Positions 112 through 20,245 of a DNA stretch of 34,894 bases are shown piece after piece; position 1 is the stretch's first letter, and each line of letters starts with the position of its first letter. This stretch comes from Actinomycetota bacterium (GTDB taxonomy: Bacteria > Actinomycetota > Acidimicrobiia > Acidimicrobiales > Acidimicrobilacustridaceae): assembly GCA_009705225.1 (NCBI GenBank), contig WLCQ01000008.1, positions 1 to 34,894 on the forward strand. The letters run 5' to 3'. The translations under genes and the position numbers were made by a program. Under the pieces are notes generated by a model. It ran no database searches and had not been told where the DNA came from. It saw only the letters and a program-made list of their open reading frames with translations.

Positions 112-1341
112 TTGCCGGGAGATTCATGCCTGCGCGTCGGCAAGACTCTTAGGGTGCCCACCGGAACCCCCTCCAAGAGCGCCCTGACGATCGAGCTCGC
201 CGCTCAGCAATCGGCGCGTATCGCCGAGTTGCTCAGAGACGGCTTCAACCTGCCTGCGCGGCGTGCCTCCACTTCCGCCGACATCAGGGACGACGATCGG
301 CTTCCGGCGCTGCTCCTGGCCATCGACCTTCACCGGGTGGCGAGTCCCCTGGCCCAACACCCGGAACTGTTCGAGTCCGCCCCCGGGACTTCCCGGGGAA
401 TCCGCGGCATGCACCTCGCCGCATCTCGCGATGCCCTCGGACTGGTGGCCCAAACCTCGTCCGCGTGTGCCCACCTGAGCCGCGCCGGTATCCGGAGTCT
501 GGTGATGAAGGGTGTGGGCATGGCGGCGGTACAGGGACGGACTCCCAGTGCACGAGGTAGCGGCGATCTCGATCTCTGGGTCCATGTCGACGACGTGATC
601 CAAACGGTCGAACACCTGGCGACGATCGGTTATCAGCCGGAGGATCCCGCTGCGGTGGAACTCGTCGGTTCGGCGTCGCGCCGCGGGCGGATCTACCGAT
701 GGATCACTCCCGAGATCACGCTCCTCCACAATGAGTTGAAGCCGATCGATCTGCATTTCCGACTGCTGCGGAGCACCACGCACGTGCCGATCACGTTCGA
801 CGAGGCGTGGGAGAGTTCCGTCCTCATTCCCGGCACCGACGGCCACGGCCGCACGCTGTGCGCCGAGCACGCGCTCAGACATGCGGCCGCGCACGCAACG
901 AAGGACTGCTGGGACACGCTCCGCCATGTCGTCGATATCGTGCACCTCGCGCGAATGATCGGGGACGATGCGCTCGGGAGACTTTGCGTCTCCGACCCTT
1001 CCGTCGACCTCGCAGTGGTGGTGGCGTCAAACCTCGACCCCGGACTCACTCGCCACACAACCTCCTCTCGGCGCACACACCGCCGTGCCCGCGTCGCATG
1101 GAAGATGTGCCTGTCGCTCTCCAAGCGACCCCAGTCGATCGCCCTCCAAACCGGTTGGGCGAATATCCGATCCCGCTCTGAGGTCATGGTGTGGCAGGTG
1201 CGAACCGCTCCCGATCTCGGGACGGCCCTGCACCCACTCATCGAGGCCCCAGTGTCCATGCGAGCACTCACCGACCCGGCTCCGCTACCCCTCGGCATCA
1301 TGCGCGACATCCTCAACCGAGCGAAGGAGACCCGCCGATGA
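112..1341 (+). CDS. Nucleotidyltransferase family protein (PF14907-like, NTP_transf_5)
   Basis: Motif LVMKGVGMAAVQGRTPSARGSGDLDLWV (KG...R..GDLDLWV), downstream LHNELKPIDLHFRLL and HAAAHATKDCWDTLRHVVDIVHLA, typical of this family. Start is TTG at 112 or GTG at 154. Stop overlaps the next ATG (ATGA). Confidence 0.75.
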   Translation: MPGDSCLRVGKTLRVPTGTPSKSALTIELAAQQSARIAELLRDGFNLPARRASTSADIRDDDRLPALLLAIDLHRVASPLAQHPELFESAPGTSRGIRGMHLAASRDALGLVAQTSSACAHLSRAGIRSLVMKGVGMAAVQGRTPSARGSGDLDLWVHVDDVIQTVEHLATIGYQPEDPAAVELVGSASRRGRIYRWITPEITLLHNELKPIDLHFRLLRSTTHVPITFDEAWESSVLIPGTDGHGRTLCAEHALRHAAAHATKDCWDTLRHVVDIVHLARMIGDDALGRLCVSDPSVDLAVVVASNLDPGLTRHTTSSRRTHRRARVAWKMCLSLSKRPQSIALQTGWANIRSRSEVMVWQVRTAPDLGTALHPLIEAPVSMRALTDPAPLPLGIMRDILNRAKETRR

Positions 1342-2540
1342 CTGCCGCTGACAGCGCCTCCTCGAGCGCACTGCCACCCACAACCCGCACGCTGCCCGTA
1401 CATCTGCGACGGGTGCTCGTCCTCGACGCAGGCCCGATTGCTCCGATGGAGACTGCTGGCGACCGAGCGATCGCCGATCTGCTCGATTCGCTCGTGGCGA
1501 TCGGGGCGAAGGTCCACTTCCACGGACTCGGCTCCAGAGGGCCCGACGATCTCGAACTGCTCAGGGCCATTCGCGGGCGCTCGCCGATGATCACCGCCAC
1601 CAGCGAGAACCCTTCAATTGATGACTTGCTCGCCGGTGGAGATTTCGATGTGGTCATCGCCAGCCGACCCGGCACCGCGCTCGCCGTATCCGCCGCCCTC
1701 CGGCGCCACCCCGAGTTACTGCGCATCTACTGGGGCCACGACATCCATTCGATGCGTCTCTCCGCGCAGAACGCTCTGCTCGGAGTTCCCGAGGACCACC
1801 GCACCCGGATCACTGCTCTCGCCGAGCGCACCAACTGGTCGACCTTCGACTGTTCGGTCTACCCAGCGCAATTCGAAGCCGACCATGTTCATTCGATCCT
1901 CGGCGACGATCGGGCGGTCGCATTTCCGTACTACCGCCTCACCGATCTTGATCTCCCACAGCAGGTGCCGCCACATGCCGGGCGCCGTGGTCTGCTCATG
2001 GTCGGACTCGGTGCACATGCGCCGAACGCCGATGCCGCCGTATGGATGGTTGACGAAATCCTTCCGCTCATCGAAAGCGCATCGTCATCGCTCACCATCG
2101 TCGGTCGATGGGAACCCGAACTGCGGGAGCGACTCGCACACCCGGCGGTCACCTTCACCGGCTTGGTTTCCGATGACGAACTCCGAGCGTTGCACCTCCA
2201 GCATCTATGCCTGATCGCGCCGTTGCGATTCGGCGGCGGTACCCGCAGGAAACTCGTTGGCTCCATGGGCTTCGGGCTACCGGTGGTCACAACACCGGAA
2301 GGGCTCCGCGGACTTCTCGTGCGCGACGGCATCGACGGATCCGACGGGATCAGCGTCGGAGGCGATCCCACCGAACTGGCCACTGCCGTGCACCAACTCA
2401 TGGATGATGCCTCATGGTGGAGTTCGCTCTCGCACGCCGCCCAACGAGCCGCAGGCTGGACCTACGGGTCTGACGCCTATGATCGGTCTCTGATCGACCT
2501 GCTTATGCGCAGCGATGATCGCCGCACTGCGCTTCGCTGA
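1338..2540 (+). CDS. GT4-type glycosyltransferase
   Basis: C-terminal LIAPLRFGGGTRRKLVGSMGFGLPVVTTPEGLRGL matches the GT4 donor-binding region. ATG at 1338 overlaps the upstream stop. Confidence 0.8.
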   Translation: MTAADSASSSALPPTTRTLPVHLRRVLVLDAGPIAPMETAGDRAIADLLDSLVAIGAKVHFHGLGSRGPDDLELLRAIRGRSPMITATSENPSIDDLLAGGDFDVVIASRPGTALAVSAALRRHPELLRIYWGHDIHSMRLSAQNALLGVPEDHRTRITALAERTNWSTFDCSVYPAQFEADHVHSILGDDRAVAFPYYRLTDLDLPQQVPPHAGRRGLLMVGLGAHAPNADAAVWMVDEILPLIESASSSLTIVGRWEPELRERLAHPAVTFTGLVSDDELRALHLQHLCLIAPLRFGGGTRRKLVGSMGFGLPVVTTPEGLRGLLVRDGIDGSDGISVGGDPTELATAVHQLMDDASWWSSLSHAAQRAAGWTYGSDAYDRSLIDLLMRSDDRRTALR

Positions 2541-2584
2541 ACCTGTGGTTCTCGGAGGTCGCCCCTCGGACAAGGACTACCTAC

Positions 2585-2986
2585 ATGCTCGATGAGATCT
2601 ACACACTGCGAACTCCCAATGTCGTGAGTGACGAAGTGGGTGGGGAGACCCTCGCGATCAACCTCGATACCGGCGCCTATTACGTGATTGCGCCATCGGC
2701 GCTGCCCGTTTGGCGAGCGATCAGCAATGGGATTCGACCGAGCGCACTTCTGGACGATGCTGATGACAAGCGCTCTGCTGCACTCAGCGCGTTCGTCGAA
2801 CAGGTCATCGCCGCCGGATTGGTGACGGCCAGCGACATCGAGAGCACCGTGGATAGCTCTATCGAGTGGAACGCCGACGGGTTGCTCCTTCAGGAGTTCA
2901 CCGACATGGCCGACCTTCTTGGTCTCGACCCCATCCACGATGCAGACGAAGTGGTCGGCTGGCCTTCCGCCAACCGGCCGGACTGA
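2585..2986 (+). CDS. PqqD-like / RRE-fold protein
   Basis: 133 aa; VSDEVGGETLAINLDTGAYYVIAPSALPVWRAISNG is the PqqD-family pattern (E..ET.L.NL.TG.YY.L...A..VW..I..G). Confidence 0.8.
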   Translation: MLDEIYTLRTPNVVSDEVGGETLAINLDTGAYYVIAPSALPVWRAISNGIRPSALLDDADDKRSAALSAFVEQVIAAGLVTASDIESTVDSSIEWNADGLLLQEFTDMADLLGLDPIHDADEVVGWPSANRPD

Positions 2987-3000
2987 ACCTCCGGGAAACA

Positions 3001-5457
3001 ATGACCGACGCAAATCTCTCTGCGTGGATCCGTTCAGCGCATGAGGCGCTCAAGTCGCAGTCGATCGAGTGCGCTGGCGCCGCGTGGGGTCCCGTTCGCC
3101 TGCGCCATCGGACCACGAGCCCCGGGTGGTTCTCCGGCTTCGACCGCGCCTGGGCGCGGCCTCTTGGTACGGCGACCGATGGAGCGACCGATGGAGTGAC
3201 CATCGATCTCATCACTGCTCCGATACGTGACCTTCCAGCATCAATCACTCCGCCGGCGATCACCCATGGCCGCCTCGGCGCGCGCGGTGAGGTCATCGAC
3301 GCCCCCGACGAAGGAGTGCTGCTGGTCTGGGGTCAACATTCGGGCGAAATCATCGGTTGGGACCTCGAATCTTCACTGGCGATCTGCCTCAGGATGGAGC
3401 CGCCCAACGGCTACGAGGTAGTCAGCCCCCTGCGATCGCTTGTCCATTGGTCGACGATTCGCTCCGGCGGTGTGCTCATGCATGGCGCTTCGGTGGGCAT
3501 CGCTCGCTCCGACGAGGGACCCGGTCGGGGCCTATTGCTCGTCGGCGAGGCCGGCTACGGCAAATCCACCTCGACACTCGCCTGCCTCGAGCGCGGCTGG
3601 ATCACCTGTGGCGATGACGCTGTCGCGCTCTTCGCCGATGATCGAGGTTGGCGCGCCCACGCCGTCTACGGAGCGGTCAAGACCAAGCTCGATGCCGAGG
3701 TGAACCCCGCCGATGTTCCCGACGCCGTCACCTGGGAGATCGCTGGGACGAAACGAGCACACCTGCTCACCTCTACCGACGAACAGCACCTCGTCAAAGA
3801 GATGGCACTCGACGGAATCGTGCTGCTCGATCCCGATGCTGATCCTGACGAGCCCTGGCGGGAAACCTCCCCTGCCCATATCCGTACCGCCGCTGCCCCT
3901 TCGAGCGCGCTCCCGCTGCCTTATTGCCGCACCGAGATCCTCGGGCGAATCGGCCAGGCCGCACATGACCTTCATGGTTTCGTGCTGCCCCGCCGACGCA
4001 CGCTGGCACAAACGGTCGAGGACCTCGATGCCATCCGAGTGGCATGCCATCCGCGAGTGAGCGTCATCCTGCCGGTCTACCGCGGCGCCGCATTCGTGAC
4101 CGATGCAATAAACAGCGTCCTCAACCAGCGGCGCGGCAGGTTCGAGATCATCGTGGTCGACGATGCTTCCCCCGATGATTCCGTCGAGCTCATCGAAGAA
4201 CTCCGCCCGCAGATCGAGCAAGGTGGTCACCGACTCGTCGTCGTTCACCACGCAACCAACCTCGGAGTCACCGCAGCACGCAACAGCGGTCTGCGGGCCT
4301 GCACGGAACCGTTCATTGCGTTCCTTGATCAAGATGACATCTGGAGCCCTTCACACACCGAGATCCTCACCGCTATCGCCGCACGGGACGATGCCTTGGT
4401 GGCCATAGGTGGTGTCGCCTTCGAGGACCTTGGTTCCGAACACGCAAGAACCTGGATGCGCTCCGAATGGTTCGCTGGTGACCACACCGGACATGTCCTC
4501 GGAGCGATGCTCGTGCACCGAGACGTCATCGGGGAGATCGGCGAATTCGACGAACGACTCACAGCGGCCGCTGACGACGTCGATTGGATCATGCGACTAC
4601 GCGACGCAGGAATCCCAACGACGACCTCCGCCGACGTCGTGCTCACCCGACGAATCCATGACACGAACCAGACCGCCTCACTCGGTTCCGATTCAAGTGA
4701 TCTCCTGCGAACCGTCCGAGCCCACCTAGACCGAGCGCGCCGCGCCACTGACTCCACGCCCCTCCCTGTTGTCGACGTGGTGATCCCCATCCACAACCGC
4801 GTCGAATACCTGCGTGCCGCCGTCGACTCCGCACGCTCGCAGGAACAGGTCTCGGTACGGATCTTTGTGGTCGACGACGGCAGTTCTGAAGACGTAGCCG
4901 GCGAAGTGGCGTCCTGGCACTACCCGGAGGTGAACCTCATCACCCACGCTCACCAACGAGGGATCGGGGCAGCCCGTAACTCCGGAGCCAAGGCCGGAAC
5001 CTCGCCATGGATCTCCTTCCTCGACGGCGATGACCTCTGGTTCCCGGGCCGGTCACGAGCCCTGATCGACGTAATCGAATCCTCGACCGAGGCGCGAAGT
5101 CTCGCCCACGGCCACGTCGCTCTTTTCGGCGATGAGCAGGGCCTCGCAGCAATCGAGGAGTTCTCCGTGGCCGATGCGCCGCCATCGCTGCTGCCCGGTG
5201 GGGTGCTGCTGCGCCGGTCTGTCTTCGAGCAGATCGGCCTTTTCCCCGAGGATCTGCAGATGGGCGAGTTCATCGAGTGGGCCGCTCGGGCGCGATCGCT
5301 CGGGGTCGTCGAACTGAGCATTGCGCGGATCACCCTTCTGCGCAGAGTGCACGAGCGCAGCACCACACGGGAACAATCCGTGCATACCAGCGACTACCTG
5401 AAAGTCGTGGCGCGGGCACGCGCCGCACAGAGAACGTTGCCCGGCGAGCCCAACTGA
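3001..5457 (+). CDS. HPr-kinase-like P-loop domain fused to two tandem GT2 glycosyltransferase domains
   Basis: ATG at 3001, 15 bp after the pqqD-like stop. LMHGASVGI...GRGLLLVGEAGYGKSTSTLACLERGWITCGDDAVAL parallels HprK (HG...GxxGxGKS...RG...DD.V). Then VSVILPVYRGAAFVTDAINSVLNQ...IIVVDDASPDDS and VDVVIPIHNRVEYLRAAVDSARSQ...IFVVDDGSSED, two GT2 N-termini. Confidence 0.85.
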   Translation: MTDANLSAWIRSAHEALKSQSIECAGAAWGPVRLRHRTTSPGWFSGFDRAWARPLGTATDGATDGVTIDLITAPIRDLPASITPPAITHGRLGARGEVIDAPDEGVLLVWGQHSGEIIGWDLESSLAICLRMEPPNGYEVVSPLRSLVHWSTIRSGGVLMHGASVGIARSDEGPGRGLLLVGEAGYGKSTSTLACLERGWITCGDDAVALFADDRGWRAHAVYGAVKTKLDAEVNPADVPDAVTWEIAGTKRAHLLTSTDEQHLVKEMALDGIVLLDPDADPDEPWRETSPAHIRTAAAPSSALPLPYCRTEILGRIGQAAHDLHGFVLPRRRTLAQTVEDLDAIRVACHPRVSVILPVYRGAAFVTDAINSVLNQRRGRFEIIVVDDASPDDSVELIEELRPQIEQGGHRLVVVHHATNLGVTAARNSGLRACTEPFIAFLDQDDIWSPSHTEILTAIAARDDALVAIGGVAFEDLGSEHARTWMRSEWFAGDHTGHVLGAMLVHRDVIGEIGEFDERLTAAADDVDWIMRLRDAGIPTTTSADVVLTRRIHDTNQTASLGSDSSDLLRTVRAHLDRARRATDSTPLPVVDVVIPIHNRVEYLRAAVDSARSQEQVSVRIFVVDDGSSEDVAGEVASWHYPEVNLITHAHQRGIGAARNSGAKAGTSPWISFLDGDDLWFPGRSRALIDVIESSTEARSLAHGHVALFGDEQGLAAIEEFSVADAPPSLLPGGVLLRRSVFEQIGLFPEDLQMGEFIEWAARARSLGVVELSIARITLLRRVHERSTTREQSVHTSDYLKVVARARAAQRTLPGEPN

Positions 5458-6380
5458 TGGCGACCGTCGCCGATCCGTCAGAGGAGCAGATTCTCCGCTC
5501 GGCGGTGGAATTAATTCTCGACCCATCCTTCTCGCCGGCCAACCTCGACGAACAGCTCGGACGCATCGATCCCGAGCTTGCGAGCTTCGCGACCTGGCGG
5601 GCCCTCACGACCCTCGAGCGTTTCCTTCCCGCCGATACGCCGTGGAGCGTCAGAGTCCGGAGTCTGCGACGACGCAGTTTCTACGCCCATTCAATCGCGC
5701 TCGAAGCCGCTGCTCGTGTCTCCCAGCAACTGGCGCTCACCGGGACCGAGCATGCGCTGTACGGAGACCTCGCGCTCGCCCTACGCCACCCGAATCCCGG
5801 AGATCGTCCGGTGCATGCAGTGGTGTTCACCATCGCCGAGGATGCCGACACCAGTGTGATCGGTAATGCACTCGCGTCATTCCCCAAGATCATGGTCGAC
5901 CATGTCGATGCGCATCGCATCACGGGGCGAATCGAAGGGATCGAACTACGCATCGAGAAGGGCTGGCTCCCGTGTCCGTGGTATCGGCGGGTCCCGCTCA
6001 CCAACCAGCTCATCGAGCGGCCGGAATCCAACCCCTCCACCGACCAGCCGATACCCCTTCTCGCCGACGCCGCCGAGATCATTCGACTCCTTGAATTGGG
6101 CGGATCAGGCGCAACCGATCGGACTTGGCCGCTCGACATCGCTCGACTCGAGGCAAGCGACGCTCCCCGTCTCGCTGCCGAACTCGGGCGTACGGCGTTT
6201 CTCATTGATCAATGGGAGAGCGCCACGGACCTCGGGTTATTCCAAACTGTTCCCGCACCGAAGCTCCGAGGCACTCCAGGCGAGTGGCTCAAGCGGGCCA
6301 CAACCAGTCGACATCGTTCGATCAGACGATCAGCGAGAGTCGCCGTTGGCCTGTTGGGCGAGCACCCGCGTCATCGATGA
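5457..6380 (+). CDS. Divergent nucleotidyltransferase-like protein (PF14907-like layout without the catalytic acidic motif)
   Basis: ATG overlaps the previous stop (TGATG). LTGTEHALYGDLALALRHP, IEGIELRIEKGWLPCPW and IIRLLELGG...RTWPLDIARL occupy family-like positions, but no G-x-D-x-D is present. Confidence 0.45.
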   Translation: MATVADPSEEQILRSAVELILDPSFSPANLDEQLGRIDPELASFATWRALTTLERFLPADTPWSVRVRSLRRRSFYAHSIALEAAARVSQQLALTGTEHALYGDLALALRHPNPGDRPVHAVVFTIAEDADTSVIGNALASFPKIMVDHVDAHRITGRIEGIELRIEKGWLPCPWYRRVPLTNQLIERPESNPSTDQPIPLLADAAEIIRLLELGGSGATDRTWPLDIARLEASDAPRLAAELGRTAFLIDQWESATDLGLFQTVPAPKLRGTPGEWLKRATTSRHRSIRRSARVAVGLLGEHPRHR

Positions 6381-6444: not shown

Positions 6445-7542
6445 CTAGTGGTCGGTGGGTCGCAGCGGCTTCACATTCTCGATATGCCAAAGCATCTCGA
6501 GACAGGCCTCGGCGGCCGACATCGGGACAGATGGTCGAGCCGGAGAACGGCGCGCCCGCCGGTACCAACCAGGCATGCGGCCGATCGAAGGAACCGCGAA
6601 CGCTGCCACCTCACAGGTATCAACCATCCAGTGAGGCAGAGAACTCGCATGGAGTTTGTCGGCCACCCGACACTGCTGCTCCCAGATGCGTTTCCGAACT
6701 TTCCACGTCAGCGGCAGTGCCGTCGAACGGTTCGTTGCCTCTGGATCGTCGAAGTCGAAGTCCTCGAACTCAGACTCGAAATCGGCCTCCGACGCTGTCT
6801 CATCCTCTGATCCGGCCGCCAACGAAGCCGTTTCTTTGCCCCCCATGAGGTTGCCGACGCGATAGCGATGTGCCCGAAGGCGCATATCGGCGATGGTGGT
6901 CGGATGACGATGGACCACCCGGGCGCTTCGAGTCATAGCGACTTCGTAACCCGCCTCACCCAATCGGTCGCAGAGATCGAAATCCTCGCCGCCGGCGAGC
7001 AAGAAGTTCTGGTCGAAACCGCCGACAGCCTCAAGGGCGCTGCGGCGAAATGCCGCATTGGCGGTGATAAGACGCCAACCGTGATCGCCCTTCTGATGCT
7101 CCAGATGGATCTGATCGGTCATCATCCGCGAGACCGGATTGCTGGCATGAACTGGATCGACGCGGCCGCCAACACCGCCTGCATCGGGATGCGCCATGAA
7201 CCAACGCCGAAGGTCGTCGAGCCAGTTCAACTCGACAATGACATCATCATCGAGGAATGCGATGACCTCGCCAGATGCGCGTCGCCAACCGATGTTGCGA
7301 GCAGTCGCGGGGCCGGCGCGCTCGGTGCTGATGAAAGTAACCGGACGGTCGTACACCGAATTTTCGATCATCTTCGGATGCTTGGCGCCGTCGAGAACAA
7401 CGATGACCTCGATGGTCTCACCCGGCAGCAGGTTGTCGTGAACCGACGTGATGCACTGATTGAGCCATGCCCATCGACCACCACCAGTGGGGATGACCAC
7501 ACTGAAGGTCGGAGCATCCGCTCCCTGCGTCGGGGCGGTCAT
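6445..7542 (-). CDS. GT2 family glycosyltransferase
   Basis: FSVVIPTGGGRWAWLNQCITSV...IEVIVVLDGA...ARNIGWRRASGEVIAFLDDDVIVE. Start at 7542 overlaps the stop of the upstream sulfotransferase (ATGA); 7551 is an alternative start. Confidence 0.88.
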   Translation of the reverse strand: MTAPTQGADAPTFSVVIPTGGGRWAWLNQCITSVHDNLLPGETIEVIVVLDGAKHPKMIENSVYDRPVTFISTERAGPATARNIGWRRASGEVIAFLDDDVIVELNWLDDLRRWFMAHPDAGGVGGRVDPVHASNPVSRMMTDQIHLEHQKGDHGWRLITANAAFRRSALEAVGGFDQNFLLAGGEDFDLCDRLGEAGYEVAMTRSARVVHRHPTTIADMRLRAHRYRVGNLMGGKETASLAAGSEDETASEADFESEFEDFDFDDPEATNRSTALPLTWKVRKRIWEQQCRVADKLHASSLPHWMVDTCEVAAFAVPSIGRMPGWYRRARRSPARPSVPMSAAEACLEMLWHIENVKPLRPTDH

Positions 7543-8432
7543 CGGTTCCACTCCGAGAGGTCGCGCCCCAGCAGCACTCCGAGGGCATCGTTATACGGCC
7601 GGTAGTATTCGACCAACCCCATCCGCGTGAATCGATTCATGCTCGGCGCTGGGTTCGGGCGTTGCGTGATACGTGTGATACGAGCGCCGAGGGGGTGATT
7701 CGCCTTTTTGATCCGTACCACCATTCGCCTTCCCACTGGCGGAAGAATGCTGTTCTGGTTGCTGTTGTCTTGCGGCAATTTCTTCAGCAGAGGCCTGACT
7801 CCGAGGAACTCCTGAACTGTTGCGAGTGTCTCGGCGGGTTCCCCGACAAGATCATCGAACAGCAGGACGAGCAACTGAGCGGGATCAACACCAAGATCAA
7901 AATATCGCTGCAGTTGGTTGACGTAGTGCCCGTAAACGATGTTGGCGCCGACCATCGGTTGCGCAGCACCACGGGCAGAGATCTGGCCGTCGAGGAAGGC
8001 TTCGAACGTGGGATAGACCTGACCGGCTCGCTGCGAGTGCCAATAGGAGGAATAGAGACGGTCCACTGGGTTGCGGAGTATGGCGATGAGTTTCGCGCCC
8101 GGCGCGAACTTCGCGATCTGCCTCGCGGCTGCGGGGATCAAGAGGTACTCGGGAGTAGCCTCTCCAATGAGTCGTTCGCCCGACCATCCGGAGAAGAAGT
8201 CCCGGTAGCCCTCGCCACCGATTTCTTCGTCGGGAACCTTCCCGAAATGCTGGGCCTCCTTCGCATCAGGAAGGTAGATCTCCGGATGACGCTTGAGCGC
8301 CGATGCGAGCGAACTCGTGCCGGACTTCTGAGCTCCGATGATCAGGAAATCGGGCCGGAACGGAACCGCCAGCCGATCGTCCACGGCAGTAACGGCGGAG
8401 TTCACTCCAAGGCTTTGCTTCTCGACTGACAT
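7539..8432 (-). CDS. PAPS-dependent sulfotransferase domain protein
   Basis: FLIIGAQKSGTSSLASALKRHPEIYLP (5'-PSB loop), ILRNPVDRLYSSYWHSQ (3'-PB motif). Start 8432 preferred; 8459 and 8450 are alternatives. Confidence 0.88.
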   Translation of the reverse strand: MSVEKQSLGVNSAVTAVDDRLAVPFRPDFLIIGAQKSGTSSLASALKRHPEIYLPDAKEAQHFGKVPDEEIGGEGYRDFFSGWSGERLIGEATPEYLLIPAAARQIAKFAPGAKLIAILRNPVDRLYSSYWHSQRAGQVYPTFEAFLDGQISARGAAQPMVGANIVYGHYVNQLQRYFDLGVDPAQLLVLLFDDLVGEPAETLATVQEFLGVRPLLKKLPQDNSNQNSILPPVGRRMVVRIKKANHPLGARITRITQRPNPAPSMNRFTRMGLVEYYRPYNDALGVLLGRDLSEWNR

Positions 8433-8533
8433 ACCCCCATTGTGGTGCATCCGAAGCACACAATGCGACGGCGGCTCGGAGGCTGCGGCAGCCGGAGCAT
8501 TAGGATCCGTATCCTTTCACTCCGAAGGTTCCC

Positions 8534-9394
8534 ATGACCGATTTCAACCCCGATGACGAACGACCCGACGTCCCTCCGCCCGAATTGCGCTATCGCCGAC
8601 GTGTGGGACTCAGGAGTGCTGCTTCGCAACTGTGGGCGGCCCGCGGGATGGTGGAGTCCTCAGCCCAGCGGGCCCTGCGCAGCCGGTATCAGCGAAATCT
8701 CCTCGGACCGCTCTGGGTGCTCATCAGCCCCATCGCCTACCTGCTCGTCTTCACGACGTTCCTCCGTCGAGTCGTCCAGATCGACACCGGCGGCGTGCCG
8801 TACCCGCTATTCATCTACACCGCCATGGTTCCCTGGCAGTTCTTCACGGCTGCGTTGAACAACGGATCGACATCGATCGTGTCGAATCTCGCGCTCATCC
8901 GGAAATTCAGAGCCCCCTCAGAGGTCTACCCGATCGCCATGGTGGTGGTCGCAGCGATCGATGCTGTCGTCGTCGCTCTTGTACTCCCTGTGTTCTTCAT
9001 CTTCAGCGGCAAGTGGCCGACTCTTACCATCTTGTGGATACCGCTCATTTTGCTCATCGAACTCGTTGTGATCATGGCTCCGGTCCTCCTTCTCAGCGCC
9101 CTCATGCCATATCTCCGCGATCTTCGGCAGTTCGTGCCGCTCGCGCTCCAGATCGGCTTCCTGTGCACACCGATCGCCTATAGCGTCGACTCCATCCCCA
9201 AAGGATCGAGAGTCTGGTTGAGCATTGTCAATCCAATGATTCCGGTGGTCGACAGTTTCCGTCGATGCTTGGTCTACGGAAGAAGCCCCGATTGGGGACT
9301 GCTCGGCGTGGGACTGCTTTCGGCCTCCGCGCTCTTCGTCGTCGGTTACTTCGCCTTCCGCAGGCTCGAAGTGGGATTCGCTGATGTCGCCTGA
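8534..9394 (+). CDS. ABC-2 type polysaccharide export permease (Wzm-like)
   Basis: RSRYQRNLLGPLWVLISPIAYLLVFTTFLRRV..., six-TM pattern, coupled to the downstream ATPase. Confidence 0.88.
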   Translation: MTDFNPDDERPDVPPPELRYRRRVGLRSAASQLWAARGMVESSAQRALRSRYQRNLLGPLWVLISPIAYLLVFTTFLRRVVQIDTGGVPYPLFIYTAMVPWQFFTAALNNGSTSIVSNLALIRKFRAPSEVYPIAMVVVAAIDAVVVALVLPVFFIFSGKWPTLTILWIPLILLIELVVIMAPVLLLSALMPYLRDLRQFVPLALQIGFLCTPIAYSVDSIPKGSRVWLSIVNPMIPVVDSFRRCLVYGRSPDWGLLGVGLLSASALFVVGYFAFRRLEVGFADVA

Positions 9395-10565
9395 CGCGCT
9401 CGCTCCCGGAAGCGTACGGATCGACCACCTCTGGAAGCGGTTCCGGATTGATGATCCACCCCAGCGATACGGCGTCGCAGAAATGCGGCGGCTGAAGAAG
9501 TTGCTTGCCGGCGACCACCTCAGCGGTTGGCGATGGGTATTGCGCGATATTTCCCTGCAGGTCGAACCCGGCGAGACCCTCGGATTCGTGGGCATCAACG
9601 GTTCCGGGAAATCAACGCTCCTCAAGATCGCCGCCGGCCTGGTCCACCCCTACGCCGGGTCGGCAACGAGCAGTGGACGAATCGGATCTCTCATGGATGT
9701 GCAGGCCGGTATCCAGAGCGATCTCACCGGCCGCGAGAACGTGCTGCTCTACGGCCGGATGCTTGGCTACTCGATGCGCCAGATGCGGGAGATCGCCGAC
9801 GAAATCATCGAGTTCGCTGGCATCGAGGATGCCGTCGATCGTCTGGTGAAGCACTACTCGTCCGGAATGAGCGTTCGACTTGGATTCTCGATTGCTTCGC
9901 ACCTCGAGCCCGACATCCTCATCGTCGATGAAGCACTCGCCGTCGGTGACGCCGATTTCCGACTCAAGTGCATGAAGCGAATGCGAGAGGTGGTGGATGG
10001 CGGCACCACACTGCTCTACGTCTCGCACGGTCTCGAATCCATCCAGGCCATGTGCAAGAAGGCTGTGTGGCTCGATGGCGGCGTGATTCGTTCGGCAGGT
10101 ACATCAGCCGATGTCGTTGCCGCCTACCGAGAAGCCACGATGGGGGCAATCATCGATTCCGATGAGGAGGTCGTGCTCGAAGCCGAAGCCGAGCGCGGCG
10201 TCGGCTACTCAAAAACCGGCGGTTCAAAGAACATCTCGTTGTTTGTGGCATCACGGACCGAGCGCGCAGCGGAGATCACCATCGGCTTGAGTCTCGGGGA
10301 AGTGGACCCGTTCGTCACGATGAACCACCACGTGCAACTCAAGCCCGGCCCGAACCACTTCACGCTCACGATGCACGATCTGCCGCTTGCGCAATCGCGA
10401 CTGCGCCTCTGGGCCACTGTCAACGATTCTGCAGGCATCGCGTTGTGCTCATGGCAGCCACTGCTCTGGTTCCGGGTGATGGGGGACGAACTCCCGCCAC
10501 CGCCCCGTGGAGTTTCAAGGATGGCCCCGATCTGGATCCGATCGAGCCTGGCGCCCGTTTCCTGA
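9384..10565 (+). CDS. ABC transporter ATP-binding protein with C-terminal extension (Wzt-like)
   Basis: Walker A GINGSGKSTLLK, signature YSSGMSVRLGFSIA, Walker B DILIVDEALAVGD; about 140 aa C-terminal extension. Overlaps the permease by 11 bp. Confidence 0.9.
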   Translation: MSPDALAPGSVRIDHLWKRFRIDDPPQRYGVAEMRRLKKLLAGDHLSGWRWVLRDISLQVEPGETLGFVGINGSGKSTLLKIAAGLVHPYAGSATSSGRIGSLMDVQAGIQSDLTGRENVLLYGRMLGYSMRQMREIADEIIEFAGIEDAVDRLVKHYSSGMSVRLGFSIASHLEPDILIVDEALAVGDADFRLKCMKRMREVVDGGTTLLYVSHGLESIQAMCKKAVWLDGGVIRSAGTSADVVAAYREATMGAIIDSDEEVVLEAEAERGVGYSKTGGSKNISLFVASRTERAAEITIGLSLGEVDPFVTMNHHVQLKPGPNHFTLTMHDLPLAQSRLRLWATVNDSAGIALCSWQPLLWFRVMGDELPPPPRGVSRMAPIWIRSSLAPVS

Positions 10566-14675: not shown

Positions 14676-15953
14676 GTGAGTATCTCTGTTGGCGTGGTCG
14701 GTGCGGGGTATGTCGGACTCACACTCGCTGCATGTTTGGCCGAACTCGGCCATCAGGTGATGTGCGTGGATTCTGATGGAAGCAAGATTGATCAACTCAA
14801 CCAGGGCAACTCCACGATCGTCGAGAAGGGCCTGCCCGAACTGATCAGATCCAGTCTCGAATCCGGTCGTCTGCACTTCGTCCTGGGTTCCGCGGCAACT
14901 GTCGTCGACACCGAGATCATCTTCCTGTGCCTGCCCACACCGATGTCAGAGACCGGAGCGGCAGATACGCATCTCGTGGTCGAAGCGATACGCGAACTTG
15001 CACCCGTCGTCGCAGCCGGCACCATCATCGTGAACAAGTCCACTGTGCCGATCGGGTTCAAGGACGTCGCTGTCGCCATGATCGGCCGCAGCGACGTGCA
15101 CCTCGTCTCCAATCCGGAGTTCCTCCGTGAGGGCACCAGCGTGTCTGATTTCCTGAACCCGGACCGGATCGTCGTCGGGGCCGACTCGGCAGAGGTTGCG
15201 CAGCGGTTCCTGCGGCTCTACGAAACCATCGATGCCCCCGTGGTCATCACCGATCCCGTGAGCGCCGAGACCATCAAATACGGCGCCAACGCGATGCTCG
15301 CGGCACGACTTTCGTTCATCAATTCACTCGCCCATCTCTGCGAGGTCGTCGATGCCGACATCGACGATGTCCTGCGCGGCATCGGTTTTGACCATCGCAT
15401 CGGGTCCGAACTCATGAGTCCTGGGCCCGGATGGGGTGGCTCCTGTTTCCCCAAGGACACCGCCGCGCTGCTCCAGACCAGCCGCCAGGCTGGTTTCGAC
15501 TTTCCGCTTCTCGCCCAGGTCATCGACTCCAACCATGCCCAGATCGATCACATGGTCAACCGGATCGAGCATGCAGCAGGTGCTCCAGCCTCGGGAGCAA
15601 CAATCGCCGCGCTCGGCCTCACCTTCAAGGCCGGCACCGACGACCTCCGTGGTTCTCCATCACTCGAAGTGCTCGATCGTCTGATCGCCCGTGGGGCCTC
15701 TGTACGGGCCTACGACCCAACCCACCCGACTCTCGGAGCCAATCGCATGATCATCGGCGCCGATCCCTATGAGATCTGCGTCGACGCCGATGTGCTCGTC
15801 GTTCTCACCGAGTGGCCGGAGTTCTCGTCACTCGACTTCCGGCGTATCCACGGGTTGATGTCGTCGCCCAACATCGTGGATACGCGAAACATTCTCGAAC
15901 CGATTGCCCTTCGCGATATCGGTTTCACCTATGTGGGAACCGGGCGGAACTGA
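14676..15953 (+). CDS. ugd: UDP-glucose 6-dehydrogenase
   Basis: VGVVGAGYVGLTLAACLAELGH Rossmann motif, SNPEFLREG, catalytic PGPGWGGSCFPKD. GTG start with AAGGAGA upstream. Confidence 0.9.
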   Translation: MSISVGVVGAGYVGLTLAACLAELGHQVMCVDSDGSKIDQLNQGNSTIVEKGLPELIRSSLESGRLHFVLGSAATVVDTEIIFLCLPTPMSETGAADTHLVVEAIRELAPVVAAGTIIVNKSTVPIGFKDVAVAMIGRSDVHLVSNPEFLREGTSVSDFLNPDRIVVGADSAEVAQRFLRLYETIDAPVVITDPVSAETIKYGANAMLAARLSFINSLAHLCEVVDADIDDVLRGIGFDHRIGSELMSPGPGWGGSCFPKDTAALLQTSRQAGFDFPLLAQVIDSNHAQIDHMVNRIEHAAGAPASGATIAALGLTFKAGTDDLRGSPSLEVLDRLIARGASVRAYDPTHPTLGANRMIIGADPYEICVDADVLVVLTEWPEFSSLDFRRIHGLMSSPNIVDTRNILEPIALRDIGFTYVGTGRN

Positions 15954-16897
15954 TGGCCACAATCCTCATTGCCGGTGGTGCCGGTTTCCTTGGTCGAGCG
16001 ATGGCGACTCAGCTACTGCATCGGGGCGACCTGGTGGTGTGCGTCGACAATTTCGTCACCAGCGAGCGCGGCGAGCTCTCCGAACTGCTCGACAATTCGA
16101 TGTTCACGCTGATCGAACAGGACATCTGCGTTCCGATCGAACAGAACGAAGCCATCGATGCGGTTGTCGATCTCGCTTCGCCGGCGTCCCCCATCGACTA
16201 CCTGCGGCTTCCGATCGAAACGCTGCGGGTTGGAAGTGTCGGCGTGCTGAATCTCCTCGACCTCGCCCGAACCCAGAATGCGCGGTTCCTCCTCAGTTCC
16301 ACCAGCGAGGTCTACGGGGATCCACTGGAACATCCGCAGGTCGAGTCCTACTGGGGCAACGTGAATCCCATCGGCCCTCGCAGCGTCTACGACGAATCGA
16401 AACGATTCGCCGAAGCGGCGACGATGGCAAACCGACGCACGTTCGGCGTCGACACCAGAATCGCCAGGATCTTCAACACCTACGGCCCCGGCATGCGGCC
16501 CAATGACGGGCGAGTGGTATCAACCTTCATCCGTCAGGCACTTCTCGGCGAGGATCTCACGATCTTCGGCGACGGTTCGCAGACCCGGAGCTTCTGTTAT
16601 GTCGATGATCTGGTGCGCGGCTTGATCGCTCTGCTCGATGCCGATCCATCGGTGGTGGCAGAACCGATCAACATCGGCAATCCCGGTGAGTTCACAGTCG
16701 CTGAGCTCGCTGCGCTGGTGTTGGGTCTGATCGATACCCCCTCGAAGGTTGTCCATCTGGATCTACCTGAGAACGACCCGACAAGGCGACGACCCGACAT
16801 CACCCGCGCACAGGAACTCCTGGGTTGGTCGCCGACCGTGCCGTTGGCCGATGGAGTGGCACGAACCATCGAGCACATGGCGGCAACTCTTCTCTGA
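15953..16897 (+). CDS. NAD-dependent epimerase/decarboxylase, UDP-glucuronate decarboxylase (UDP-xylose synthase)-like
   Basis: ILIAGGAGFLGRAMA, VDLASPASPIDYLRLPIETLRVGSVGVLNLLDLA, SSTSEVYGDPLEHPQVESYWGNVNPIGPRSVYDESKR, characteristic of UXS. Coupled to ugd. Confidence 0.87.
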   Translation: MATILIAGGAGFLGRAMATQLLHRGDLVVCVDNFVTSERGELSELLDNSMFTLIEQDICVPIEQNEAIDAVVDLASPASPIDYLRLPIETLRVGSVGVLNLLDLARTQNARFLLSSTSEVYGDPLEHPQVESYWGNVNPIGPRSVYDESKRFAEAATMANRRTFGVDTRIARIFNTYGPGMRPNDGRVVSTFIRQALLGEDLTIFGDGSQTRSFCYVDDLVRGLIALLDADPSVVAEPINIGNPGEFTVAELAALVLGLIDTPSKVVHLDLPENDPTRRRPDITRAQELLGWSPTVPLADGVARTIEHMAATLL

Positions 16898-16920
16898 CGC
16901 TGAGTCAGTTCCATAACGAG

Positions 16921-16948
16921 CGATGGCCGACCCGAGGGCCGGCCATCG
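16921..16948. terminator. Putative bidirectional transcription terminator hairpin
   Basis: CGATGGCCGACCC-GA-GGGCCGGCCATCG, 13-bp stem with one mismatch, in the 75 bp gap between convergent genes. Confidence 0.6.
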
Positions 16949-16972
16949 TCGTACTGCTGGGTCAGAAAACAA

Positions 16973-18190
16973 CTACTCGATGCGCAGACCTGAGATGTTG
17001 CGGGCGATGACCAGACGCTGGATCTCAGAGGTGCCTTCGAAGATCGTGTAGATCTTCGCGTCGCGATGCCAGCGCTCCACCGGGTACTCGCGGGTGTAGC
17101 CGTAGCCACCGAGGATCTGGATGGCCTGCTCGGTGACCCACACTGCGACCTCTCCAGCCTTCAGCTTGGACATCGAACCCTCACCGGCGACGAATGGCTT
17201 CTTGTTCGATGCCATCCAAGCCGCACGATGGGTGAGAAGGCGGGCGGCGTCGATCTCCATCTTCATGTCGGCGAGCTTGAACGCGATCGACTGGTTCATG
17301 ATGATCGGACGACCGAACGCAACGCGCTCCTTGGCGTACTCGAGCGAATACTCATAGGCAGCGCGGGCGATACCGACCGCCATTGCAGCCACAGATGGGC
17401 GGGTGGCCTCGAAGGTAGCCATGGCCGGCTGCTTCTCCCCGCTGCGACCGGCCTCACGGGCACGGGCGAGCTTGGCGTCGAGCTTCTCCTTGCCGCCAAG
17501 CAGGCAGGAACCGGGAACACGGACATCGTCGAGCACGACCTCAGACGTGTGCGAAGCCTTGATGCCGTGCTTCTTGTACTTCTGACCCATCGAAAGGCCC
17601 TTGGTGCCCGGGGGCACGACGAAGCTGGCCTGACCACGGCCCTTGAGTTCGGGATCGACAGCGGCGACCACGACATGGATGTCGGCGATCCCACCGTTGG
17701 TGATCCATGCCTTGGTGCCGTTGAGCACCCATTCATCGTTGGCCTCGTCGTAGACCGCACGAGTGCGCAGCGAGGACACATCGGAACCGGCGTCGGGTTC
17801 GCTCACGCAGAAGGCACCAAGCATCACGTTGTCCGCCGTGCCGTAGCACTGCGGAACCCATTCCATAACCTGCTCGGGGGTGCCGTTGCCCATGATGCCG
17901 GCAGCCGCAAGGCCCGAACCAAAGATGGAGAGACCAATACCGGCATCGCCCCAGAAGAGTTCCTCGAGCGCGATGGGCATGGTGAGACCGGTGGGGTCGG
18001 CCATGTTGTTGGCCATGAACTCCCAGCCGTAGAGCCCGACCTTGGCGGCCTCCTGCACGATCGGCATGGGGAACTCTTCACGCTCATCCCATTCCTCGGC
18101 GGCGGGACGAACAACGTTGACAGAGAACTCGTGAACCCAGTCCTTGATGGTCTGCTGGTCCTCGTTGAGATCAAGACTGAAATCGGCCAT
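16973..18190 (-). CDS. Acyl-CoA dehydrogenase (copy 1)
   Basis: FCVSEPDAGSDVSSLRTRA, YAKERVAFGRPIIMNQSIAFKLADM, QILGGYGYTREYPVERWHRDAKIYTIFEGTSEIQRLVIAR. ATG at 18190. Confidence 0.93.
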   Translation of the reverse strand: MADFSLDLNEDQQTIKDWVHEFSVNVVRPAAEEWDEREEFPMPIVQEAAKVGLYGWEFMANNMADPTGLTMPIALEELFWGDAGIGLSIFGSGLAAAGIMGNGTPEQVMEWVPQCYGTADNVMLGAFCVSEPDAGSDVSSLRTRAVYDEANDEWVLNGTKAWITNGGIADIHVVVAAVDPELKGRGQASFVVPPGTKGLSMGQKYKKHGIKASHTSEVVLDDVRVPGSCLLGGKEKLDAKLARAREAGRSGEKQPAMATFEATRPSVAAMAVGIARAAYEYSLEYAKERVAFGRPIIMNQSIAFKLADMKMEIDAARLLTHRAAWMASNKKPFVAGEGSMSKLKAGEVAVWVTEQAIQILGGYGYTREYPVERWHRDAKIYTIFEGTSEIQRLVIARNISGLRIE

Positions 18191-18247
18191 GGGGCAACCT
18201 CTGGGATCGGCCGACGACGGCGTCGCCGGATTAGGGGATGCGCTCAA

Positions 18248-18263
18248 GTTACCCCGCGGTAAC
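18248..18263. promoter_or_regulatory. Palindromic putative operator GTTACC-CCGC-GGTAAC
   Basis: Perfect 6-bp half-sites, 58 bp upstream of ACAD copy 1 start; same motif at matching distance upstream of copy 2. Confidence 0.5.
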
Positions 18264-18351
18264 AGGCCCTGTCGCACGCAGGGAAAGGCCGCCACGGTGG
18301 CGCCTGTCCACCTAGAGTCCACCGCACGCAACCACCGCACGAGGTCCACCC

Positions 18352-19311
18352 ATGACGGCAACAACAGCCACCCGAATCAGCCCCGCTTACGACGACGTCG
18401 ATGCAGTCCTCTCCGTCGTGCGTTCCACCGGCCCATACTGGCCACTGGCCAACTATGCCGGCAACGATGCCGAAATGGCTGCGCTCGGATCACGTCCCGC
18501 GGTGTTTGTGCCACCGTGGTTCCGCCAGGACATCGGAGCTGGGGGCCTCCCACTCGTCAATGGCGCCGAAGTCATTGTCGATAACCCGCACTTCATCGCT
18601 GCGGCTCACGCGGTGTACGGCGCCGGGTGCATCGTGCGACCCACCAACGCCTATGTGAACATCATGGGACCGACCCCGTTCCCGTTCATGCCCCATCTCG
18701 ACGTGCCGGCGTTCCGCGGTTTCACCCGCGCGGACCATCCGATCTGGTTGCTCAAGGTCATGCAGAATTCGGGCATGTTCGAGCAGTGGCGCATTCATAT
18801 CGCCACTGCCGTTTCCTGGTTCTATGAGGGCGAGGGCGGCGATTTCAACTACTGGCCCGAGGGCCCAGACGGTCCGCAGATGGCTGAATCTCCACCGATG
18901 CGCAATGTGAGCATCGTGGCCGATAACGAAGCCACGTTCCACGGGGTGGCGCCAGTGGGCCCTGCGGACGCAAAGGTGCCACGCGGCATCGACAGCCACA
19001 GCCGCATGGTGCACAGCGGTGCTGGTTGGGATGTGCTCGACGCCGACGGTGGAGTCATCACCAGTTTCACCGATGCTGAGGTCCGAATCACTGTTTCGTG
19101 GAAGGCCGATGTCTTTCTCGATGCGGAAGAAGCCCGCCGTGCTGATGCCGGCGAGGACGCGCTTGATCTCGACACTGTCGTCACCATGTTCCAGACCGAT
19201 CTCCACGCTCGCGGGGTCGGCATCGACCGTCCGACCGATCCCGTTCACAACGAGGAATGGGTGGCACTGATTGCGGCCACCTACCCCGAGAACCCGCCGC
19301 ACATGTCCTGA
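18352..19311 (+). CDS. Uncharacterised protein, possibly 2OG-Fe(II) oxygenase-like fold
   Basis: HLD (in FMPHLDVPAF), distal His in TFHGVAPVG, later VRITVSWKADVF fit an HxD...H...R pattern. Fold assignment is inference. Confidence 0.5.
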   Translation: MTATTATRISPAYDDVDAVLSVVRSTGPYWPLANYAGNDAEMAALGSRPAVFVPPWFRQDIGAGGLPLVNGAEVIVDNPHFIAAAHAVYGAGCIVRPTNAYVNIMGPTPFPFMPHLDVPAFRGFTRADHPIWLLKVMQNSGMFEQWRIHIATAVSWFYEGEGGDFNYWPEGPDGPQMAESPPMRNVSIVADNEATFHGVAPVGPADAKVPRGIDSHSRMVHSGAGWDVLDADGGVITSFTDAEVRITVSWKADVFLDAEEARRADAGEDALDLDTVVTMFQTDLHARGVGIDRPTDPVHNEEWVALIAATYPENPPHMS

Positions 19312-19315
19312 CCCC

Positions 19316-20245
19316 GTGAGCATTGCCAGCCTTGCCGATCGAATACGGCCCCGGACACGCCTACGGGCCGCCCGCTCCCACTGGAGCGCGCGCCGTCATG
19401 CGCTTCCAGACTTTCTGATTCTCGGTACCCAGAAGGGCGGCACCTCGTCGCTCTTCGACTATCTCACTGCGCTTCCGGGGGTGATCACATCCGCGACCAA
19501 GGAACTGCACTTCTTCACCAAACATTCCGTATCGAATTTCTACGACAACCATGGGCTCGATTGGTACCGATCCCAGTTCCCACTCCGAAGCGAACTGCGA
19601 CAGGCAGGAGCGATAACCGGCGAGGCCACACCGCGCTACATGTACGAACCGCTGGCGATGACCCGGATCGCCCGGGACCTCCCCGACAGCCGTTGGATCG
19701 TGATCCTTCGCGAGCCCATTGAACGCGCGCAGTCACATTACGAGATGATGACCGGCTTCGGGAAGGAACAGCGATCGTTCACCGACGCTTTGCACGATGA
19801 CCTTAAAGTGTTCATCGCAAGCACCAGTACCGCGAGCGCTTCAGCGCCGACCCGTTACGACAACCTCGATTATCTGGAGCGCGGCATCTACACGCAGCAG
19901 CTTTCAGTCATCGCAGGGCTCCGGCCGGGCATCCCCACCCTCGTGCTGTTCAGCGAGCATCTCTTCGCCGGCGATCCGACGAGTTTCTCGCTGCTGCATT
20001 CCTTCCTCGGACTCCCGGAACCCGAAGCGAATCGGTTCCCACACTCACGTCGCGGGCAGGGAACGACCACAATCGATCCGATCGCCCGCGAGCGACTGGC
20101 GACCTTCTTCACCGAGAACAACGCTGGTCTGGCAGAGCTGCTGCAGTCCGATCGGTTCGTCACCGTTGATCCAACGACCTGGCCGGACTGGGTGCATCGC
20201 GGCCACCTACCCCGAGCACCCTCCGAGGATGGCCTGATCGTGTGA
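19316..20245 (+). CDS. PAPS-dependent sulfotransferase domain protein
   Basis: FLILGTQKGGTSSLFDYLTALPG and VILREPIERAQSHYEMM. GTG at 19316, 4 nt after the previous stop. Confidence 0.87.
   Translation: MSIASLADRIRPRTRLRAARSHWSARRHALPDFLILGTQKGGTSSLFDYLTALPGVITSATKELHFFTKHSVSNFYDNHGLDWYRSQFPLRSELRQAGAITGEATPRYMYEPLAMTRIARDLPDSRWIVILREPIERAQSHYEMMTGFGKEQRSFTDALHDDLKVFIASTSTASASAPTRYDNLDYLERGIYTQQLSVIAGLRPGIPTLVLFSEHLFAGDPTSFSLLHSFLGLPEPEANRFPHSRRGQGTTTIDPIARERLATFFTENNAGLAELLQSDRFVTVDPTTWPDWVHRGHLPRAPSEDGLIV

Follow-up and report, generated by a model that had tools for sequence, protein, structure and literature searches.

A tail-bearing PqqD-like protein, an HprK-like kinase and GT2 glycosyltransferases form a bacteria-wide cassette that may build a phosphate-linked glycoconjugate

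Introduction

The stretch of DNA analysed here (34,894 nucleotides of contig WLCQ01000008.1 from the Acidimicrobiia assembly GCA_009705225.1; hereafter the window) begins with an operon of five genes in which a PqqD-like protein is encoded together with an HprK-like kinase, two PF14907 proteins and glycosyltransferases of families GT4 and GT2. The locus raises the question of whether this combination belongs to a described peptide-modification system, and what it would make. We find that this operon represents a cassette present bacteria-wide, which has its core in common with known systems and adds to it the C-terminal tail of the PqqD-like protein and the GT2 enzymes. That this cassette builds a phosphate-linked glycoconjugate around an adaptor of the RiPP-recognition element (RRE) type, RiPP standing for ribosomally synthesized and post-translationally modified peptide, is given a probability of about 0.5. 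No description of the cassette was found in the papers searched, and none matched PqqD with HprK and nucleotidyltransferase, HPr-rel-A, HprK-related kinase or PF14907, in a coverage without bioRxiv preprints and without the majority of subscription journals. The first-pass annotation of this DNA contained neither the tail, nor its tie to GT2, nor the spread across bacteria.

Results

Organisation of the operon

The genes lie on the + strand at about 154–6380, tightly packed. Genes 1 and 2 share an ATGA overlap at 1338/1341, a gap of 44 bp (2541–2584) separates genes 2 and 3, 14 bp precede gene 4 at 3001, and genes 4 and 5 overlap by one base at 5457; the list of open reading frames (ORFs) and its coordinates agree with the five co-oriented genes and the junctions described in the first-pass annotation. 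The longest ORF of gene 1 opens at TTG 112, and GTG 154 is the more likely start. The features are:

154–1341, + strand: gene 1, NTP_transf_5 (PF14907) nucleotidyltransferase-like protein (Pfam, 95.2 bits against a cut-off of 31.2; alignment)
1338–2540, + strand: gene 2, GT4-family glycosyltransferase (PF13692, 67 bits against 27)
2585–2986, + strand: gene 3, PqqD-like protein, predicted RRE, with a C-terminal tail (AlphaFold, Foldseek, alignments)
2867–2890, + strand: leader-like segment in cis, residues 95–102 of gene 3, WNADGLLL, degenerate and without Pro
2897–2965, + strand: conserved tail FTDMADLLGLDPIHDADEVVGWP, residues 105–127 of gene 3 (alignments; tail-only profile)
3001–5457, + strand: gene 4, HprK-like kinase domain fused to two GT2 domains
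3001–4035, + strand: predicted HprK-like kinase domain of gene 4 (alignments, PDB profile match 1jb1, fold)
4051–4755, + strand: first GT2 domain of gene 4, LDQDDIW (PF00535, 186.8 bits for the whole protein)
4768–5400, + strand: second GT2 domain of gene 4, LDGDDLW (second PF00535 stretch; GT2 match in the census)
5457–6380, + strand: gene 5, degenerate PF14907 paralogue with the DxD replaced (hhalign; alignment)

The Pfam scan upheld, above cut-off, the earlier assignment of gene 1 to PF14907, of gene 2 to GT4 and of gene 4 to two GT2 domains; the kinase domain scored below threshold, and neither gene 3 nor gene 5 had a Pfam match of its own. Alignment and fold, and for the kinase also a profile match in the PDB, nevertheless led to the same kinase and PqqD domains that had been proposed.

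The locus L067 has the exact gene order of the window operon, including the HprK-GT2-GT2 fusion and a GT4 counterpart of gene 2 in the equivalent position, and L066 has it likewise once its frames are re-read. Position 1 of the window is the end of the contig, and the DNA before it is missing in the assembly. Since the cassettes in L067 and the re-read L066 open with the PF14907 gene, the whole cassette is probably contained in the window; the gene preceding it in L067 is part of a neighbour block common to L066.

Recurrence across bacteria

A pattern derived from the tail occurred at 403 places in 85,462 species genomes, and 367 of these places encode a relative of the PqqD-like protein. The best 80 of the 367 were taken as a neighbourhood sample; they span more than 20 phyla, among which Chloroflexota is the commonest, and kinase, GT2 and PF14907 were all present at 50 of them, across most phyla sampled. 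A census was made within 7 kb with home-made hidden Markov models (HMMs) on six-frame translations. Applied to the 59 loci whose downstream sequence reaches at least 6 kb, it detected an HprK-like kinase at 51, GT2 at 51, PF14907 at 46, an MsbA-like ABC protein at 25 and GT4 at 13. At tail-PqqD loci the start of the HprK-like gene is commonly no more than tens of bases away from the PqqD stop codon, and this gene was fused to GT2 at 13 of the 104 loci tested (the window and 12 others), the fusions including Bacteroidota, Nitrospirota, Lentisphaerota, Myxococcota and Acidimicrobiia. Sulfotransferase, FkbM and O-FucT-like genes are recurrent neighbours in other loci.

Chance is a very poor explanation for this arrangement, since the cassette recurs both within the class and across bacteria, and in its exact order in L067 and L066; the co-occurrence in other genomes that the first-pass annotation had called for was found. 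A full cassette lies on the mobilizable plasmid pCRI9333.04 of Crinalium epipsammum PCC 9333 (L264, NC_019735.1), which suggests horizontal spread.

Some Chloroflexota loci (L097, L105 and L160) lack both kinase and PF14907; their tail-PqqD gene has ABC ATPase matches and genes for large AMP-binding-type proteins as neighbours. AMP-binding, carrier and acyltransferase domains were seen in L105, and L160 has additionally an NMT1-like protein.

The PqqD-like protein and its tail

The gene 3 product aligns along its full length with true PF05402 paralogues. Its AlphaFold model (pLDDT 87) found lasso RRE-leader complexes of TbiB1 as best Foldseek matches (probability 1.00), FusB1 also being matched; the E-values were only about 0.005, which is no surprise given the small size of the domain. 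On this model the protein is predicted to have the RRE fold.

All cassette-type PqqD proteins share a nearly invariant C-terminal extension with the consensus F/Y/W-xxPxLEKYTDMQDLLLLDPIHEVDExGWP. Conservation averages 3.3 bits per column in the tail against 2.2 in the RRE domain. The search pattern itself accounts in part for the value at columns 110–119; D107, M108, G125, W126 and P127, also invariant in this alignment, lie outside the columns that it selects. At a fixed spacing before the tail, 56 of 76 proteins have aromatic-x-x-P-x-[LVIFA] (shuffled sequences: mean 3.8, maximum 9), and in a 57-row alignment the aromatic residue is kept in 56 rows and Pro in 55. This F/Y/WxxPxL segment looks like the leader-peptide motif bound by the RREs of lasso peptides and of linear polyphosphorylated peptides (LPP), here fused to the RRE itself. 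The copy in the window is a variant without Pro (W95-N-A-D-G-L). In PbaB1 the three residues after the leader motif extend the RRE sheet (PMC13381572), and the model of the window protein has an extra strand at 102–105, in the corresponding place. Of the leader-binding groove, F70, L74 and L79 are retained in the family; the window protein has Val in place of L74. In 32 whole genomes searched with a tail-only profile, the tail always lay within PqqD-sized ORFs of 142–297 amino acids.

Association of the tail with GT2

PF05402 matches sampled within the class Acidimicrobiia gave 22 tail-PqqD and 40 tail-less loci, which were compared over 5 kb on either side. GT2 was found at 20 of the 22 tailed loci and at none of the 40 without a tail, and the tail is therefore a marker of a GT2-bearing branch. 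The kinase (20/22 versus 26/40) and PF14907 (19/22 versus 20/40) occur on both sides; these HMMs were built from tail loci and could therefore undercount kinase and PF14907 where there is no tail, while GT2 is easily detected. Where both kinase and PF14907 were present, GT2 accompanied them in 17/17 tailed and 0/16 tail-less loci.

In the kinase tree the tail loci form nearly one clade (54 rows, SH-aLRT 94; row L083 is mislabelled as tailed, and L082 and L083 are without a tail, which leaves the conclusion unaffected). Phyla are intermixed inside this clade, a pattern suggestive of horizontal transfer. A long branch carries the window kinase together with those of L066 and L067 and no others. 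The kinase of L077 (Acidimicrobiia) groups with that of L100 (Chlamydiota) with SH-aLRT 98, a sign of inter-phylum transfer.

Beside tail-less PqqD loci of the class there is often a gene for a Tat-signal protein, such proteins being candidate substrates of the tail-less system (L198 6204–6536, L210 4088–4447, L204 5507–6208, L224 2086–2859, L226 5414–5914, L231 4486–5265 and L228 3466–4836). Such a protein was set aside as substrate of the tail cassette because only 1 of the 22 tail loci of the class has one.

The kinase and the PF14907 proteins

The N-terminal domain of gene 4 scored 20–22 bits with PF07475, below the cut-off of 33. It has the invariant His161 of the HG motif (3481–3483), a Walker A sequence GEAGYGKS (3544–3567) and an Asp-Asp pair (3613–3618), all kept on alignment with paralogues. 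Its profile matched first, in the PDB, the solved HprK 1jb1, and its AlphaFold model (pLDDT 76) matched PEPCK and HprK with probability 1.00. By catalytic motifs and predicted fold, this domain is assigned to the HprK/PEPCK-fold kinases.

In gene 1 the catalytic pattern is intact, with DLD at 565–573 and the third Asp (DLHF) at 748–750. The first-pass annotation had called gene 5 a second nucleotidyltransferase-like protein; its homology to PF14907 was established by profile comparison (hhalign probability 90%, E 1.7e-6), but a second active enzyme was rejected since the DxD is lost (GDRPVHAVVFT versus RPLHDVDVLV in an active copy). In L070 the motif is altered in a second copy of PF14907, and L075 also has an altered copy; pairs of active and inactive PF14907 proteins may be a recurring feature of the cassette.

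Comparison with known systems

With HPr-rel-A the cassette shares an HprK-related kinase accompanied by a PqqD-like protein; it has in addition the tail and GT2. Against TIGR04352 (cut-off 200 bits) the window kinase scored 12.5 bits and its relatives 26–37; the tail-less L230 of the same class comes nearer with 89 bits, yet stays below 200. With TIGR04353 (cut-off 35 bits) the window PqqD-like protein had no match and that of L031 scored 19 bits. The earlier proposal of a conserved system of PqqD, HprK-like kinase, PF14907 and glycosyltransferases thus stands, and its placement in HPr-rel-A, whose curated cut-offs both proteins miss, was rejected.

Paeninodin- and pseudomycoidin-type lasso tailoring also has an HprK-like kinase and a nucleotidyltransferase-like enzyme, which there work on a peptide one after the other: PsmK phosphorylates a C-terminal Ser, and PsmN is required for hexoses on the phosphate (PMC9266682). 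The kinase, PF14907 and an RRE fold closest to the lasso B1 proteins TbiB1 and FusB1 bear out the relation suggested earlier. The cassette differs in that no cyclase, B2 peptidase or precursor was found for it. Among the 29 window ORFs scanned with Pfam there was neither an asparagine-synthetase-like lasso cyclase nor a B2 transglutaminase-like peptidase and, as the first reading had noted, no radical SAM enzyme; lasso PqqD models gave 13.8–53 bits against cut-offs of 70–80 (NF033536, 13.8 against 80). Membership of the lasso family was rejected on these grounds.

LPP clusters of Bacillota contain an RRE, an HprK-like kinase, an NTP transferase and an MsbA-like exporter within capsule loci, and LppK phosphorylates Ser3 of LppA (PMC13381572). 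The trio of discrete RRE, HprK-like kinase and NTP transferase is present in the cassette, as are the polysaccharide-locus setting, the leader motif [Y/W]xxPx[V/L] and, in many relatives, the MsbA-like exporter. In the cassette, however, the leader-like segment stands in cis on the RRE and GT2 enzymes belong to the core. The signal-peptidase-like SpI gene of LPP clusters had no Pfam match in the window and no counterpart among the recurrent neighbours elsewhere, and, as to a separate precursor with the LPP leader YxxPxVLxHQxIxFET, a small-ORF screen of the 104 loci gave no credible conserved family.

Mycofactocin also joins an RRE (MftB) and a GT2 (MftF) in one pathway, and within NCBIfam the GT2 region scores best against MftF. 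This score, 128 bits, is below the cut-off of 280, and the window has no radical SAM enzyme (Pfam), hence no MftC, and no MftA-like peptide; membership was rejected. By sequence comparison, the cassette core is common to LPP, paeninodin-type tailoring and HPr-rel-A, and all tested curated NCBIfam cut-offs are missed.

Surroundings of the operon and further loci of the genome

A glycan island adjoins the operon (6445–10565 and 14676–20242), with GT2, sulfotransferases, a Wzm/Wzt exporter pair at 8534–10565, UDP-glucose dehydrogenase, an epimerase and two ORFs without Pfam match (17066–18259 and 18352–19308). The source genome has two further tail-PqqD loci on other contigs, L028, where kinase, GT2 and GT4 genes stand beside a divergent PF14907 gene, and L029, interrupted by the contig end, as well as one tail-less PqqD (L233) with a weak kinase match nearby.

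Discussion

The gene content, conservation, folds, motif state and tail-GT2 tie are what the analysis shows. Phosphorylation and glycosylation of a PqqD-bound peptide or carrier, as the first-pass annotation proposed, is plausible. By analogy with the tailoring systems compared above, the reactions and their order should be as follows. The PqqD-like protein would hold its own leader-like segment, or an external peptide displacing it, in the leader-binding groove, and its conserved tail would gather the enzymes. The HprK-like domain would phosphorylate an acceptor hydroxyl, and the gene 1 protein would add a first sugar, or a nucleotidyl group, to the phosphate, as is done by PsmN for pseudomycoidin. 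The two kinase-fused GT2 domains and the GT4 would extend the glycan, and gene 5 would be paired with gene 1 without catalysing a reaction itself. Export of the product would fall to an ABC transporter, which in many relatives is MsbA-like and here is possibly Wzm/Wzt. Three kinds of acceptor come into question: the tail, a peptide or protein encoded at an unlinked place, and a sugar or lipid. A glycan-bearing, exported product is favoured because of the GT2, sulfotransferase, Wzm/Wzt and UDP-sugar genes of the window and the sulfotransferase, FkbM and O-FucT-like neighbours elsewhere.

Several observations weigh against this reading. No conserved precursor or leader peptidase was found in a comparison of all small ORFs near the 104 loci; the small-ORF clusters that did appear were rejected as precursors, as they resemble repeats and readings in a wrong frame or on the antisense strand. 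The 32 whole genomes held no stand-alone tail peptide detectable with the tail-only profile. LppN was inactive in the heterologous LPP system (PMC13381572), and the reaction of PF14907 is uncertain for that reason. L097 and L160 encode a tail-PqqD with no kinase, GT2 or PF14907 nearby. Finally, as the tail loci are nearly a single clade in the kinase tree, the tail-GT2 association reflects few origins long maintained, largely one, and not many independent events.

The role of the tail can be read in more than one way. It may be a docking arm that lies in the RRE groove in cis and recruits GT2 or PF14907 until the true acceptor, a peptide or protein encoded elsewhere, displaces it, a tentative view that fits the presence of GT2 wherever the tail accompanies kinase and PF14907 (17/17 versus 0/16), the constant joining of the tail to a PqqD-sized ORF and the family-wide conservation of F70, L74 and L79, although Val replaces L74 in the window; it would require the acceptor to be unlinked at every locus examined. 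That the tail is itself the acceptor, an RRE fused to its own leader and core, so that the modified tail serves as glycan carrier, seems unlikely. The leader-type motif [F/Y/W]xxPx[L/V/F] at fixed spacing, the predicted strand at 102–105 where leaders extend the RRE sheet in PbaB1 and LppB, the conservation of the tail beyond that of the RRE domain (3.3 versus 2.2 bits per column) and the failure to find a separate precursor or peptidase all speak for it, and the carrier would be a lasting one because no peptidase releases the tail. HprK-like kinases studied so far phosphorylate Ser, however, and at no position of the tail is a Ser, Thr or Tyr invariant: Thr106, the most promising one, is Thr or Ser in 48 of 57 rows and otherwise acidic or another residue, which fits a helix cap. 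The window copy moreover is without Pro, and the conservation of columns 110–119 is partly imposed by the search pattern. The fuller form of this proposal, in which fused RRE, leader and conserved core make a reusable carrier that is phosphorylated and glycosylated in place, is less probable still; if true, the protein would be a glycan carrier found bacteria-wide, and the system would resemble a RiPP pathway whose core is conserved and whose leader is never removed.

It is also conceivable, if improbable, that no peptide is involved, the kinase phosphorylating a sugar or lipid, PF14907 and the GT2 enzymes building a surface polysaccharide and the PqqD fold acting as a structural subunit. Glycan genes abound at the loci (the window operon adjoins Wzm/Wzt, UDP-sugar and sulfotransferase genes), HprK/PEPCK-fold enzymes act on non-peptide substrates as well, and no precursor was found; yet a purely structural role would have no need of conserved groove residues and a leader-type motif, and the tail-less sister loci carry the kinase and PF14907 core of the LPP RiPPs. 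Least probable is that the cassette is a plain member of the described HPr-rel-A, lasso or LPP families. The common RRE, HprK-like kinase and PF14907, often with an MsbA-like exporter elsewhere, point that way, against which stand the missed curated cut-offs, a window with no cyclase, B2 peptidase or signal-peptidase-like gene, and sister tail-less loci that lack both GT2 and tail.

Conclusions

RREs are a common entry point to many peptide-modification pathways, and tailoring by HprK-like and PF14907 enzymes has been described so far for lasso peptides and LPPs. The reading of the cassette as a system for phosphate-linked glycoconjugates makes predictions, namely a modified tail or peptide, recruitment of GT2 via the tail and a kinase-dependent glycan. 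Of the PF05402 proteins, 21% are larger than an RRE alone and otherwise unannotated (PMC12710340), and the cassette would give a role to part of these extended proteins. If the reading is true, a branch spanning more than 20 phyla, with GT2 and a leader-like tail, links RiPP-type recognition to surface-glycan assembly.

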